This document shows, piece after piece, positions 3,284 to 8,963 of a stretch of DNA of 53,091 nt. Numbering within the stretch: position 1 is the first letter of the stretch; every line of letters starts with the position of its first letter. The notes under the pieces are model-generated. The model did no database searches, was not told where the DNA came from, and saw only the letters and a list, made by a program, of their open reading frames with translations. This DNA is from Pseudobdellovibrionaceae bacterium. GTDB lineage: Bacteria > Bdellovibrionota > Bdellovibrionia > Bdellovibrionales > Bdellovibrionaceae. Made by a program: the position numbers and the translations under genes. The stretch spans positions 1 to 53,091 of the forward strand of contig JAEUWH010000009.1 in assembly GCA_016785955.1 (NCBI GenBank), written 5' to 3'.

Positions 3284-3421
3284 ATGGCGACTGCTTTAGA
3301 TGTAAAAGTGAGGGGGATATCACCTTTTGAACTTTTTTTAGGCAGCAAAATAAAACAAAATCTTGTCAAAAAAAATAGTTGTAATCTGATTCCTCGCGGA
3401 CTAGTTTGTGCTGGTAACTAA
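3284..3421 (+). CDS. Possible 45-codon leader ORF before the riboswitch
   Basis: ATG 3284 is preceded by AAGGA at a good distance (AAGGAAACAATTATG). The frame runs 45 codons (MATALDVKVRGISPFELFLG at the N-terminus) and stops at TAA 3419-3421, inside the loop of the hairpin that competes with the riboswitch P1 stem. No recognisable domain. It may be a true small protein, a regulatory leader peptide whose translation would melt that hairpin, or chance. Only the good ribosome binding site and the stop position support it. Confidence 0.3.
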   Translation: MATALDVKVRGISPFELFLGSKIKQNLVKKNSCNLIPRGLVCAGN

Positions 3422-3427
3422 AACCAG
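3411..3427 (+). promoter_or_regulatory. Competing (anti-aptamer) hairpin next to the riboswitch
   Basis: CTGGT (3411-3415) and ACCAG (3423-3427) form a perfect 5-bp stem with a 7-nt loop. The 3' arm is the same segment that must pair with the G-rich 3' strand of riboswitch P1. Forming this hairpin would break P1 and release the Shine-Dalgarno at 3495-3500; forming P1 would break the hairpin. This is the expected geometry of a two-state translational switch. Confidence 0.5.
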
Positions 3428-3500
3428 TATATGCCGATGATAGGTTGCAACCATGGTTCGGCGTTTCTACCAGGCTCCGTGAAGGCCTGACTACGGGGGG
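3423..3500 (+). promoter_or_regulatory. Purine-family riboswitch aptamer, guanine or 2'-deoxyguanosine type, with enlarged L2
   Basis: The core of the purine riboswitch is present in order. J1/2 is TATAT (3428-3432). P2 is GCCGA 3433-3437 with TCGGC 3458-3462 (5 bp). J2/3 is GTTTCTACC (3463-3471). P3 is AGGCT 3472-3476 with GGCCT 3484-3488. L3 is CCGTGAA (3477-3483, usual CCGTAAA). J3/1 is GACTACG (3489-3495). The base equivalent to position 74 is C, which selects guanine-like ligands over adenine, and the position-51 U is kept. L2 keeps GATA (3439-3442) and TGG (3454-3456), so the GG-CC kissing contact to L3 can form, but a palindrome GGTTGCAACC (3443-3452) plus A3453 is inserted between them. 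The P1 3' strand is GGGGGG, which is also the Shine-Dalgarno of the nuclease ATG at 3505. Ligand binding should therefore turn translation off. P1 itself is short with an A-G mismatch. Confidence 0.82.
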
Positions 3501-3504
3501 ATCG

Positions 3505-4491
3505 ATGTTAAAGCACTCGACGATGTTAATTTTACTTTTGGTCACAGTTCTTGGGGTACCTAACTTTGCATTCACAGCAGGTTTTGTAGGTCCCTTGCAA
3601 AAAAACCCATATAATCGACCGCAGGTAATCGCTCGGCAGGCTTCAGGAGCGCTGAGTGTTCGGAATCCTCAGACGGGAATATTTATGTCCCGTTACATTC
3701 CGTATTACTCTTCGGCGCTTTATCAAGCGATGAAGACTCGGACGGCCGATACTAATATGCGAACGGTGTTAAGAAGTATTTTGGTTAACTCGCATGTGGC
3801 TGAGCCGGGACAGATGGATCGTATTGTGGCGAAATGCGCTCCAGATAATAAAATTTGCTATCAGCACACGCCGCTTGGTTACGAGCGCGCACGATTATTT
3901 TTGATGGGTTATTTTTATTTAGTTCAAACGGCGGGTAATCAATACGCCATTAAAGAGGCTTATTGTAATAAACTCTACGGCCCCGAGGAGTTTAGAAGTA
4001 AATCACAGATGCCTCGTCCTCAATTTATACCGGATAACACTGTGATTAATGTCGAGCATACATGGCCGCAAAGTCGTTTCACCGGTCAACATCCTACGGA
4101 CACTCAAAAGTCGGACCTACATCATTTGTATCCCACGGACTCAAAGCTCAATGCGATTCGTGGAAATTATCCATTTGGTGAAGTGGAAACAGATTCATCC
4201 GTTTTAAAATGTGGTCAATCACGCTTTGGTCAGAGCCGCACCATTCGAGGTCCTGTGTTTGAGCCGCCTGATGTTCATAAAGGCCATGTCGCGCGGGCGT
4301 TGTTTTATTTTGCGGTTCGTTATGATTTAACGATTGATGCGGCCCAAGAGGCCACCCTTAGGTCTTGGCACCAACAGTTTCCCGTGGATTCTGAAGAATT
4401 GTTACGCAACGATGAAATTCATAAAGCCCAAGGAAATCGTAACCCGTTTATTGACCACCCTGAATTGGTAGCTTCAATGCGGGATTTCTAG
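3505..4491 (+). CDS. Secreted endonuclease I family nuclease
   Basis: A 328-residue protein, starting at ATG 3505 just after GGGGGG. A longer frame begins inside the riboswitch and is not used. Residues 1-25 (MLKHSTMLILLLVTVLGV...) form a signal peptide. The catalytic His-Me-finger core of the endonuclease I family (EndA/Vvn type) is clear: NVEHTWPQSRF, then KSDLHHLYPTDSKLNAIRGN, where the HH and the two Asn are the usual general-base and metal ligands. Several Cys occur in pairs, as expected for a periplasmic or secreted enzyme. It cleaves DNA and RNA without sequence specificity, and so may supply nucleosides or clear extracellular DNA. A perfect-match bulged terminator follows. Control by a guanine-class riboswitch links enzyme output to a product of nucleic acid breakdown. 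Confidence 0.92.
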   Translation: MLKHSTMLILLLVTVLGVPNFAFTAGFVGPLQKNPYNRPQVIARQASGALSVRNPQTGIFMSRYIPYYSSALYQAMKTRTADTNMRTVLRSILVNSHVAEPGQMDRIVAKCAPDNKICYQHTPLGYERARLFLMGYFYLVQTAGNQYAIKEAYCNKLYGPEEFRSKSQMPRPQFIPDNTVINVEHTWPQSRFTGQHPTDTQKSDLHHLYPTDSKLNAIRGNYPFGEVETDSSVLKCGQSRFGQSRTIRGPVFEPPDVHKGHVARALFYFAVRYDLTIDAAQEATLRSWHQQFPVDSEELLRNDEIHKAQGNRNPFIDHPELVASMRDF

Positions 4492-4608: not shown

Positions 4609-6486
4609 ATGAGTGAAACTCAAATCTCGAAAACACTTTTAATTTTAAAATCTAATGCCAATTCGACAACGGCTGCTGAGCAGTTTTTGCGTAATCGGGA
4701 GTGGGTTGTTTTTTCGACCAGTAATTTAAAAGATTTTTTAACTCATATCATTCAAAAAAAACCGAGCTTCGTCATGATCAGTGTGGATCATCCGAATAAA
4801 AAAGTTCTGATGATGCCAAAAGTTTTGGCGCAGTCTTTTCCTGTTTGTGTCTTTGCATTTGCAGAAAACTCGTCATCGATTTCGTTTCGAAAATTACAAG
4901 ATATTCAATGTATGTATCGCATCAATCCGCCAGCCACGGGACCGGCGATTGAGCGTACTGTAAATAAATACCTACGCGATCAAGAGAAAAAATTAAGAGA
5001 CCAGGAAGAAAAGCCGACGTTGGATGCGAATGGAAAACCAATCGCTAGTTCAGTCGATGGAAAAACCGTAATTCAGCATGGGGGCAGTTTCGCAGAAGGT
5101 GCTGGGGCTGAGGTTGGCGGCTGGAATCAGGCGGCTTCCGTTTTTTCTCAGTTGCTAGAGGGAGAAGACATTGGCAAAGGTGGTCCACAGGCCACCGAGG
5201 GCAGTGCTGGAAGTGGTGCGGGCGCTGGTGTTATCGTGGCCAAAGGTGACAAAGCGACCGAGGGGAGTGGTGCTTGGGTACCTATGGATCCTGTTGATGG
5301 CAAAGCAAATCAAGCCGGTTCTTTCACAGGTTCCAGTGAGGCGAACGGGGCTTCGGCTGGGGTGGCCGGTGCTTTAAATAAAAACACACGCGAAGGCCAA
5401 GGCCATTTTGGTCTGGGCGACTATTCTGATTTAGATGCCGATAAGCCTGGTTTGGCCGGCTCGTTGGACTCGTCCTCAGCGGCGGGTTCACTGAGTGGGC
5501 CAGGTAAGAAAAACGCACCGACGGGAGCGCTTCCCGGAGCGTCTGGCGAGAATCAAAAGAATGGTCATTTAGGTAAAACTGAATACAAAGAAAATGAATT
5601 TGAAGGGGCCAAGTCCTTAGACAAAACCGATCTTGACCCCAAAAGCATTCAAATTGGTAAAAACAAAGATACGCACGCGGGTCCACCGGCAGGGGCCGGG
5701 GAAGACCAAAAGGGTGGTCGACTGTCGTCGCCTAAAAAATACGACAAAGAACAAAAAACCATCACGATCTTGGGAAAGAACACGAGTTCCCCGTTGGAGT
5801 CGATCATTCTTAAAGGGACCAAGCAGGCCTTGGATGAGACTGTGGACGTCCTAGATGGAGAAGTGAACCAAGAGCTTGAGGATTCTTCGCAGGTGGCCTG
5901 CATCGTGGTGGAGTCAGAAAAGTTTAACGGCTATTTGATAGCGGCCTTGGGTAAGAATCGAAAATTTGATGGCAAGTTTATTAAAGCTATTCAAGAGCGT
6001 CTTTTTAAATTTTTAAAGGACAATGGCGAAAAGGTTTCCGATAAGGACAACTTGAATCTAAAGATTAAAAAGGTGGAATTCGAGGATTGGGCTTTGGAAT
6101 ATGCCGACTTCTTAAAAAAATCGGTTCATAACGGCGAAGAAATCGCGATGGCATTTTTTCCGGTTACGAACGTGCGTCCCGAGGTGGGCGAATCGGCCGC
6201 GTCGACGATGGCGTCCGTGAAACTGAGCGAGCTAGAGGGCGATAAAGTCGTTGAATTCAATATGTACGTTTATCTGCCGTCCAATAAGAAGTATATTTTG
6301 TACACTCCTAAAGGTGGCAAATTTTACGGCAATCAAAAAGGTCGACTAGAAGAAAAAGGCGTCAAAGAAGTCCACATGTTGAAGTCAGAAGTGAATGACT
6401 TGTCTAAATATAAGGCTCAGAACTATCTGAATAACCTGATTGAAAACTATAAAAAGAAGAAAACCGAGCCGCCCAAAGCCGCTTAG
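4609..6486 (+). CDS. Degenerate receiver-like protein with long Gly/Ala/Ser linker
   Basis: 625 residues, cytosolic (no signal). Residues 1-125 fold like a response-regulator receiver (SKTLLILKSNANS, KPSFVMISVDHPNKK, FPVCVFAFAE) but lack the acidic pair after strand 1 and have VMISVD where the phosphoacceptor Asp should be one position earlier, so it is probably a pseudo-receiver. Residues 130-385 are low complexity, with repeated GxxGAGA, GSxEAxGAS and ENQKNGHLGK-type strings. Residues 390-625 are ordered. Near the end FNMYVYLPSNKKYILY, a G, then RLEEKGVKEVHMLKSEV resembles the small beta domain often placed before HD or HDOD domains in delta-proteobacterial signalling proteins. A regulatory scaffold is likely but unproven. 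No Shine-Dalgarno is visible before ATG 4609. Confidence 0.7.
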   Translation: MSETQISKTLLILKSNANSTTAAEQFLRNREWVVFSTSNLKDFLTHIIQKKPSFVMISVDHPNKKVLMMPKVLAQSFPVCVFAFAENSSSISFRKLQDIQCMYRINPPATGPAIERTVNKYLRDQEKKLRDQEEKPTLDANGKPIASSVDGKTVIQHGGSFAEGAGAEVGGWNQAASVFSQLLEGEDIGKGGPQATEGSAGSGAGAGVIVAKGDKATEGSGAWVPMDPVDGKANQAGSFTGSSEANGASAGVAGALNKNTREGQGHFGLGDYSDLDADKPGLAGSLDSSSAAGSLSGPGKKNAPTGALPGASGENQKNGHLGKTEYKENEFEGAKSLDKTDLDPKSIQIGKNKDTHAGPPAGAGEDQKGGRLSSPKKYDKEQKTITILGKNTSSPLESIILKGTKQALDETVDVLDGEVNQELEDSSQVACIVVESEKFNGYLIAALGKNRKFDGKFIKAIQERLFKFLKDNGEKVSDKDNLNLKIKKVEFEDWALEYADFLKKSVHNGEEIAMAFFPVTNVRPEVGESAASTMASVKLSELEGDKVVEFNMYVYLPSNKKYILYTPKGGKFYGNQKGRLEEKGVKEVHMLKSEVNDLSKYKAQNYLNNLIENYKKKKTEPPKAA

Positions 6487-6884
6487 TTTTATATCCAAGC
6501 TGTCCAACGAATTTGCCAGCTCACCGCGTTCATTCACTCAGGCAGAGTCGCTACTCTGTAAATCAACGCCGGCGTTCAAACTCAATGAGACAAAGCCGCC
6601 ACATCAAAGATGAATAGCCTTTGTCAATAAAGCAACGCTGCTAAAATTTTGTATAAAAATTTATAGTCAGAAGAAACAACAACAAGAATACGACGACCAA
6701 GCGATGGTTAAGATCTGATAAAAGCATCGGGGCGTTTTAGCAGGCCGATATTAAAAAACAAGAAATTTTTAGAGTTCGGTCTCGAGCTTGACGCATTTTT
6801 GTAAATTCTTACCACCGTTGACAAATTCTTAATCCTGAGGCTTTTTAATCGTTCCTAATTAACTTCTAAAAGGTGGACGATCGT
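6487..6884. other. 398-bp non-coding region before hppA
   Basis: No credible gene. It holds a perfect palindrome AACGCCGGCGTT (6565-6576), an AT-rich near-perfect inverted repeat TAAAATTTT-gtat-AAAAATTTA (6642-6663), a TTGACA box (6818-6823) that could be the hppA -35 element with no convincing -10, and AAATTCTTA twice (6803-6811 and 6823-6831), about two helical turns apart, which could be an operator. The hppA ribosome site AGGTGG is at 6871-6876. Confidence 0.35.
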
Positions 6885-8963
6885 ATGATGGAATTAAGTA
6901 ATGCTTCACTGCTGCATTTGCCGGCAATTTCAGGTGTTGTAGGCCTGGTTATCGCTTTGTTCTTTTACTTCAAAGTAAAAGCGCAGCCAGCAGGTAACGA
7001 AACAATGAATCGTATTGCAACCTACATTCGTGAGGGTTCGATGGCGTTCTTGGTTCGTGAGTATAAAGTTCTTGGACTTTACTCGGTTGTGGTGGGAGCC
7101 GCATTGTTTTTTGCTTTGGGATGGGAATCCTGCGTATTCTTTTTGTTGGGGGCATTTCTATCTTTGCTGGCTGGTTTTTTTGGCATGAAGGCGGCGACTT
7201 ACGCCAATGTTCGTACGGCTCAAGCCGCTACCACCGGTGTTAAACCAAATGCATTACTTGTGGCTCTGGATGGCGGCGCGGTGATGGGACTTGCGGTTGC
7301 AGGTTTGGGGTTGATTGGTTTAGGCGTTCTTTACACTACATTTAAAGATCAACCGTCCGTTGGTACTATCCTTCACTCGTTTGCTGTGGGTGCTTCATCG
7401 ATCGCTCTTTTTGCGCGTATCGGTGGTGGAATCTATACGAAAGCGGCTGACGTGGGTGCCGATATCGCGGGCAAAGTGATTCAAGGTATTCCTGAGGATG
7501 ATCCGCGCAATCCTGGTGTTATTGCCGATAACGTGGGTGATAATGTGGGTGACGTGGCCGGTATGGGAGCTGACATTTACGAATCGATGGTGGCGGCTAT
7601 TGTTTCTACGATGGCGATTGCTTTTACGATCCCAACAGCATCATTGATGAACTTGGTGCCTGGTGGGGATGAAGCTTCAATCAGAAATGCAGCGATTGTA
7701 TTGCCTTTGATCCTTTCAGCTATTGGTTTAATTATTTCTATCGTCGTTATTTTTATCACACGTGCGTGTCGCGCGATGTTTGCTCCGGCGGCGATTTTAC
7801 GTTTTGCTCTTTTAGTTCCCCCGATCTTGTTAACACTAGCGAGTGCGATCTTGATGCCGATGTGGAATGTTTCTCAAGGTGTCACTATTGCGTTGGCAGC
7901 GGGTTCTATTGGTGGGGCTTTAATTGGTTTAGTGACGGATTACTACACATCGATGGGTCCGGTTAAAAAAATTGCGGAAGCATCGATGACGGGTCCGGCA
8001 ACGAACGTTATTCGTGGTTTAGCGGTCGGTATGGAATCAGTGGCCATCCCTACAATCATCGTCGTCATTGCGGCTGGGGTATCGAATCATTACTTAGGTC
8101 TTTATGGTATCGCCATGGCGGCTGTGGGTATGTTGGCGGGTACGGCTGTTGTTATGACCGTGGATGCATACGGCCCAATCGCAGACAATGCGGGTGGTAT
8201 TGCTGAGATGGGTGGATTAGGTAAAGACGTTCGCGCGATCACAGACGAATTAGACGCGGTTGGAAATACAACGGCAGCGATCGGTAAGGGTTTTGCGATT
8301 GGTTCTGCGATATTGACAGTTGTCGCGTTATTCAGTGCTTTCAATATGGAAGTGAACCACACGCGTGCGACGGCGGGTTTAGCACCGATGTCGTTAGATT
8401 TAACTTCGGCGGGTGTTTTGATTGGTTTATTACTGGGCGCGATTTTGCCATTCCTAGTGGGTGCAACAACAATGACTGCGGTTGGTAAAGCCGCTGGTGA
8501 TATCGTTGAAGAAATTCGTCGTCAGTTTAAAGAAATTCCAGGTTTATTAGAAGGCAAGGCAGAACCTCAGCCATCTAAAATCGTGGATATCGCAACGCTT
8601 GCGGCGCTTAAGCAAATGATTCTTCCGGGGATGATTGCGGTGCTGGCTCCGGTTCTTTGTGGATTTCTAATGGGTCCTCAAGCTCTGGCGGGTTTATTGG
8701 CAGGTGCTTTGGCTGTTGGCGCGACCATGTCCTTGTACATGGCGAACGCGGGTGGAGCGTGGGATAATGCTAAGAAATTTATCGAAAAAGGCGGAATGCC
8801 TGGTCATCCGAAGGGGTCTGATCTGCACAAGGCTGCTGTCGTAGGCGACACAGTTGGCGATCCGTTCAAAGATACCTCTGGTCCTGGTATCGCGATCTTG
8901 ATCAAAGTTATGGGCGTTGTGTCCTTGTTGATTGCGCAGCTTGTGGCAACCATCGGTGGCTAG
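6885..8963 (+). CDS. hppA: Membrane-bound ion-pumping pyrophosphatase, probably K+-dependent
   Basis: 692 residues with about 16 membrane segments, the normal size for the family. It hydrolyses cytosolic pyrophosphate and pumps H+ or Na+ out. I chose ATG 6885 because AGGTGG sits 8 nt upstream; the GTG at 6873 overlaps that site. Diagnostic loops are intact: [21 protein letters not shown], then [16 protein letters not shown] near residue 215, [12 protein letters not shown], and [14 protein letters not shown] near the C-terminus. In the motif [10 protein letters not shown] near residue 460 the key position is Ala, as in K+-dependent enzymes (K+-independent ones have Lys). Whether the pumped ion is H+ or Na+ cannot be read by eye. 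It is monocistronic. Confidence 0.96.

Follow-up and report, generated by a model that had tools for sequence, protein, structure and literature searches.

A guanine-class riboswitch that probably represses translation of a putative secreted endonuclease I, as one likely case of a nuclease regulon in Bdellovibrionota

A guanine-class riboswitch lies directly upstream of an endonuclease I gene in the window, by which we mean the whole 53,091-nt stretch of Bdellovibrionaceae DNA analysed here. Judging from its sequence and its relatives, this element probably represses translation of a secreted DNase and represents one case of a nucleic-acid-digestion regulon that extends across the phylum. Control of purine synthesis and transport is the textbook role of guanine riboswitches; here, the same kind of sensor appears to control the extracellular digestion of DNA and RNA.

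A covariance-model search of the window with the Rfam purine riboswitch family (RF00167) returned a match of 44.0 bits, compared with a gathering score of 37 bits, that spans all 102 model positions (Table 1). This is the sole Rfam match reaching its family threshold in the window, and the 4.3 Mb genome contains no other purine riboswitch (E = 8.2e-6 in a search of one genome). A preliminary description, made from the letters alone, had proposed a purine-class riboswitch upstream of endonuclease I with a cytidine as the ligand-pairing base, as in the guanine-like class. Both proposals hold; the core motifs, their order and their spacing were given correctly, and the interval assigned to them (3423-3500) is exactly P1 plus the Shine-Dalgarno (SD) sequence. 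The overlap of the SD with P1 did not feature in that description. The conserved junction nucleotides are all present, namely U22 in J1/2, U47 and U51 in J2/3, C74 in J3/1 and the A21-U75 pair. Likewise present, both in the window and in relatives, are the GG of L2 and the CC of L3 that would form the L2-L3 contact. These features indicate that the element is almost certainly a complete aptamer with a pocket for the nucleobase guanine. What identifies this RNA is the covariance model together with the comparative data, not stability; by folding energy, the 94-nt leader does not stand out from sequences of like composition (z = -0.48).

Table 1. Coordinates of the riboswitch, its parts and the downstream gene in the window
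Feature	Position	Strand	Evidence
Purine riboswitch aptamer, full RF00167 match	3405-3513	+	44.0 bits vs gathering 37
Hairpin CUGGU-AACUAAA-ACCAG, would take P1 5' strand, candidate P1 competitor	3411-3427	+	Sequence; appears in unconstrained fold; inferred
P1 5' strand ACCAGTA, positions 15-21	3423-3429	+	Sequence
J1/2 TAT	3430-3432	+	Sequence
P2 5' strand GCCGA	3433-3437	+	Sequence; pairing and covariation in relatives
L2	3438-3457	+	Sequence
L2 insertion GGTTGCAACC, extra hairpin GGU/ACC	3443-3452	+	Same-site hairpin in 6/6 genus members
TGG of L2, positions 36-38, L2 side of L2-L3 contact	3454-3456	+	GG kept in 6/6 genus members
P2 3' strand TCGGC	3458-3462	+	Sequence, RF00167 match
J2/3 GTTTCTAC with U47 and U51, nucleobase-type pocket	3463-3470	+	Sequence, RF00167 match
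P3-L3: CAGGC (3471-3475), L3 TCCGTGAAG (3476-3484), GCCTG (3485-3489)	3471-3489	+	Sequence; covariation
J3/1 AC	3490-3491	+	Sequence
C74, ligand-pairing base, guanine class	3491	+	Sequence, RF00167 match
P1 3' strand TACGGGG, positions 75-81	3492-3498	+	Sequence, RF00167 match
SD GGGGGG, starts at position 78 within P1	3495-3500	+	Sequence; same place in 40/40 endonuclease I loci
Endonuclease I (Endonuclease_1), 328 aa, motifs NVEHTWPQ and DLHHLYP	3505-4491	+	PF04231 7.5e-40; PDB 2pu3 2.5e-14

The three-way junction, U22, U47, U51, C74 and the L2-L3 contact are shared with the B. subtilis xpt-pbuX type of RF00167 guanine riboswitch. However, the known type controls purine synthesis or transport by means of a transcription terminator, whereas the window switch precedes a putative secreted nuclease, carries its SD inside P1 as expected for control of translation, and bears an inserted hairpin in L2.

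The downstream open reading frame scores 137.6 bits with the PF04231 Endonuclease_1 profile (gathering cut-off 25). Its first 25 residues (MLKHSTMLILLLVTVLGVPNFAFTA) read by eye as a signal peptide, and this signal-peptide-like N-terminus suggests that the product is a secreted DNase. No relative of this nuclease was found in the viral contigs searched. The same genome carries a second, more distant endonuclease I gene (locus L135; G000 contig 96, 10537-11028) that lacks a riboswitch. Two forward-strand open reading frames of 618 and 625 amino acids (867-2723 and 4609-6486) flank the endonuclease gene and have no Pfam or NCBIfam match, and a membrane pyrophosphatase is encoded at 6873-8963 (+), for which the NCBIfam annotation is sodium-translocating (1019.6 bits, cut-off 926).

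The start codon of the endonuclease gene sits only 14 nt after C74 and no terminator was found between the aptamer and this ATG, on which grounds control of transcription was rejected; no promoter was recognised. The window switch is likely, on its layout, to act on translation. In each of the 40 endonuclease I loci measured, the SD starts inside P1, 4-6 nt after C74; it starts within P1 in 124 of the 126 nuclease or DUF3465 loci with a recognised SD, compared with none of the 12 loci that precede EamA permease genes. Because the SD lies inside P1, a ligand-stabilised P1 is predicted to hide it. Direct SD sequestration in P1 has been described for SAM-I riboswitches (PMC2258182), in which the SD is likewise part of the P1 3' strand, although the aptamer and ligand differ and that survey does not report P1 sequestration as typical for purine riboswitches.

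We hypothesize that the exported nuclease helps to digest prey or environmental DNA, such that guanine (or hypoxanthine) is released and taken up by the cell. The purine would then bind the three-way junction and lock P1, and the locked P1 would mask the SD and lower endonuclease I output. This would constitute translational feedback by the product, with the nuclease turned down when guanine is ample and up when supplies are low. Several unrelated secreted nuclease families across Bdellovibrionota would be governed in the same way.

Folding energies alone leave the direction of control unsettled. Ensembles computed with penalties, with the aptamer forced or with P1 forbidden, yield similar SD exposure at endonuclease I loci, and the P1 of the window contains an A-G mismatch and covers the SD only in part. 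Since C-rich strands able to pair with the SD lie upstream in this genus (CCCCG, CCCGT and CUCCCGU in relatives), we grant a small but real chance to an ON switch with the same aptamer, in which the nuclease rises with guanine, for example as a sign of prey DNA. In the ligand-free RNA, the C-rich strand (~3392-3405) would pair with the SD while the CUGGU/ACCAG hairpin holds the P1 5' strand; guanine would then form the short P1 and free most of the SD. Unconstrained folds that include 40 nt of upstream sequence do favour pairing between the C-rich strand and the SD, and the 3' half of the SD is not covered by the window P1. Moreover, one genus member (G064) has a 7-bp complement to the SD (P = 0.002), but the complement in the other five is 3-5 nt, which is not above chance. 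Outside the genus, every nuclease family also has the SD placed in P1, and P1 is stronger there. Conservation of an upstream anti-SD strand among endonuclease I leaders was considered and was not convincing (6 of 40 at P < 0.05, where two are expected). A guanine-bound state that lowers nuclease output remains, from the position of the SD, the probable direction.

The organism of the window belongs to the Bdellovibrionaceae and adjoins the metagenome-assembled genomes Bdellovibrio sp. 28-41-41, UBA2316 and UBA2351. Matches to RF00167 occur in 71 of the 141 genomes of its order and in 93 of the 369 genomes of the phylum Bdellovibrionota. The extracted set comprises 152 riboswitches from 96 genomes, 151 of which were aligned by a fixed-motif parse. 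The conservation of UCUA in J2/3 and of CU at positions 74-75 is partly built into this alignment because the parse requires those letters, although the loci themselves were found by the Rfam model independently of it. Covariation, which the preliminary description had offered as a check among related leaders, was indeed observed. Among 144 distinct sequences, P2 and P3 covary strongly; P1 positions 17-20 covary as well, with a signal at 17-19 that is clear in this wider set only. Positions 17, 18 and 19 are paired in 127, 112 and 106 of the 144 sequences, compared with shuffle maxima of 108, 75 and 78 (for 18-78, 112 versus 75), and this covariation is evident even though P1 carries the SD.

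In the window, GGTTGCAACC stands between GATA and ATGG of L2. It folds as GGU-UGCA-ACC with 3 bp, as its 4-bp palindrome would give a 2-nt loop. All six genus members have an insertion at this site, between GATA (or AATA) and (A)TGG, and in all six it is a hairpin, but its sequence, length, stem and loop differ: four are GGTTGCAACC, GGTTTTAGAACC, GGTTACGAAAACC and GGTTGTGAAGACC, one is 34 nt with a 7-bp terminal stem (GATGAAG/CTTCATC) and one is 53 nt. Compared with shuffled sequences, the terminal stems yield P values of 0.07, 0.04, 0.005, 0.03, 0.2 and 0.001, which are not independent of one another. Between two subclades, both partners have changed at two positions of the L2 stem (G-C to A-U and U-A to G-C). 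The earlier suggestion that the insertion pushes out a small hairpin while leaving the L2-L3 contact bases in place thus applies throughout the genus. Separately, hairpin insertions are present in L3 of three loci, L117, L157 and L158 (for example, TGCT-TTTC-AGCA in L158). Hairpins in both loops, with the contact bases kept, indicate that the purine aptamer tolerates such extensions in L2 as well as in L3. The most plausible view of the L2 hairpin is that of a loop extension which is tolerated, may add stability and would leave the L2-L3 contact intact.

These peculiarities might instead be signs of a decayed, non-functional relic. The genus has the lowest RF00167 scores (36-46 bits), the model did not detect the riboswitches of two members (G063 and G064), which have long L2 insertions and were found by eye, P1 is weak and mismatched, and the loops carry insertions. 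However, all six members retain the core junction and the loop contacts, the changes in their P2 and L2 stems are compensatory, and the SD holds the same place in P1. We therefore regard decay as quite improbable.

The predicted ligand of the window riboswitch, from its junction nucleotides, is guanine or hypoxanthine. The preliminary description had looked to products of DNA breakdown and named 2'-deoxyguanosine (2'-dG) among them, a proposal that does not survive comparison with the known 2'-dG riboswitches. Both classes of these have C51, and the 2'-dG-II class additionally has a G-C junction pair in P1 (G21-C79) and a 2-nt insertion in J3/1 (U75-C76) (PMC8872408). The fold is alike, but the window has U51, A21-U75 and a J3/1 free of any insertion. 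In addition, whereas the purine model proposed as a check succeeded, its 2'-dG-II counterpart (RF03165) gave no match in the window's genome at E values up to 10. With none of these features present, a deoxynucleoside ligand is not supported. A variant sensing 2'-dG or another nucleoside, convergent with the Bacteroidetes 2'-dG-II riboswitches, would fit DNA digestion biologically and shares a downstream gene with some of them, but the substitutions above, the lack of an RF03165 match and the retention of U51 in the 151 aligned loci (where the alignment pattern demanded it) make this the least credible of the alternatives.

That shared gene also bears on novelty. Endonuclease I is already listed downstream of Bacteroidetes 2'-dG-II riboswitches in PMC8872408, which cites a 2017 variant survey, so there is a precedent for a purine-family riboswitch at endonuclease I, and the nuclease target is not as new as had been suggested. 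What appears to be new, as far as our searches reached, is a guanine-type aptamer before endonuclease I and its association with a whole set of secreted nucleases across the phylum. Literature on riboswitches together with Bdellovibrio, guanine, nuclease or endonuclease did not report the association; the 2017 survey (10.1073/pnas.1619581114) lay outside that search.

To define the targets, the first long open reading frame after each of the 152 riboswitches was taken and sorted into eight sequence clusters, two of which are endonuclease/exonuclease/phosphatase (EEP) proteins. Secreted-nuclease-like genes follow 136 of the riboswitches, comprising HNH-like (76), endonuclease I (41), PD-(D/E)XK-like (11), EEP (6) and EndoU (2) genes. 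The other targets are EamA permeases (12) and DUF3465-like genes (4), and none of the 152 is followed by a purine synthesis or salvage gene. Most nuclease groups start with a hydrophobic, signal-like stretch. Pfam supports the endonuclease I, EEP, EamA and EndoU assignments. The commonest target, a family of signal-peptide proteins of ~160 amino acids with the motif KIDHYIPLCMGGSN..NLWPQ (for example, at L072, L002 and L051), is called HNH-like from the pattern DH[FY]IPL..GG.N...NLWP together with weak profile matches (HNH_5, 0.02; Cas8f-HNH, 0.002), and its scores fall below Pfam cut-offs. The PD-(D/E)XK-like proteins (for example, at L015, L021, L036, L150 and L156) have a signal peptide and an invariant GELD...EVKCWK; they have no Pfam or PDB match and are named from the GELD...EVK motif only. 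Thus, riboswitch gene neighbours can reveal nuclease families that Pfam misses. Outside Bdellovibrionales, a purine riboswitch preceded endonuclease I in none of 20 named loci (Bacteriovoracaceae, Myxococcota, Elusimicrobia, Bacteroidia and others). The association of guanine riboswitches with nuclease genes across Bdellovibrionota strongly suggests a regulon for nucleic acid digestion.

The arrangement is also found in Bdellovibrio bacteriovorus HD100. Genome G004 was taken to be this strain because both published Bd1244 RT-PCR primers (PMC3593177) lie in one of its endonuclease I genes. Its three endonuclease I genes, at 0.887, 1.179 and 3.415 Mb, follow the order of Bd0934, Bd1244 and Bd3507. 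Of its two purine riboswitches, one lies directly before the third of these genes, which we take to be Bd3507 from gene order and not from a locus tag; Bd0934 and Bd1244 have no riboswitch. Published work shows that Bd3507 is an exported nuclease expressed midway through predation (PMC7925074), that its protein level is higher at 3-4 h (PMC12546842) and that it is used during growth in prey (PMC7925074, PMC12546842). It belongs to the same gene family and bacterial family as the window example and likewise has a purine riboswitch with the SD in P1 directly upstream, but its leader lacks the L2 hairpin and has a stronger P1. The accessible text of the published Bd3507 studies (PMC7925074, PMC3593177, PMC12546842) does not mention a riboswitch.

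The second HD100 riboswitch (L072) precedes an HNH-like gene near 2.005 Mb, after position 2,004,836, that is not among the nucleases tabulated in the accessible part of PMC3593177. In a 2020 deletion study, extracellular DNase activity rose after removal of bd0934 and bd3507; no strongly induced nuclease transcript was seen, and the authors considered that increased translation or an unidentified nuclease might explain the result (PMC7925074). Translational control of the HNH-like nuclease by its riboswitch would be a concrete candidate for this rise.

On balance, we lean towards a broader proposal in which the guanine riboswitch of Bdellovibrionota has been recruited as a master sensor. Unrelated secreted DNase and RNase families, including the unannotated HNH-like proteins, would all be repressed in translation by guanine, so that the product itself sets the pace of predation and of DNA and RNA scavenging, and the switches at EamA loci may act oppositely for export. 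If true, this would explain how predatory bacteria regulate the output of their many redundant nucleases, and it is directly testable in B. bacteriovorus.

The expression platform of the EamA loci is perhaps different, forming an ON switch for purine export. An ON-type platform based on GACUA/UAGUC pairing was evaluated for these loci and was not significant in single loci. At all 12 (L055, L094, L096, L099, L104, L105, L118, L120, L124, L138, L154 and L155), the start codons are farther downstream and the SD lies outside P1. Their riboswitches mostly share the J2/3 sequence GTCTCTAC (C48) and a P3 near CAACT/AGTTG.
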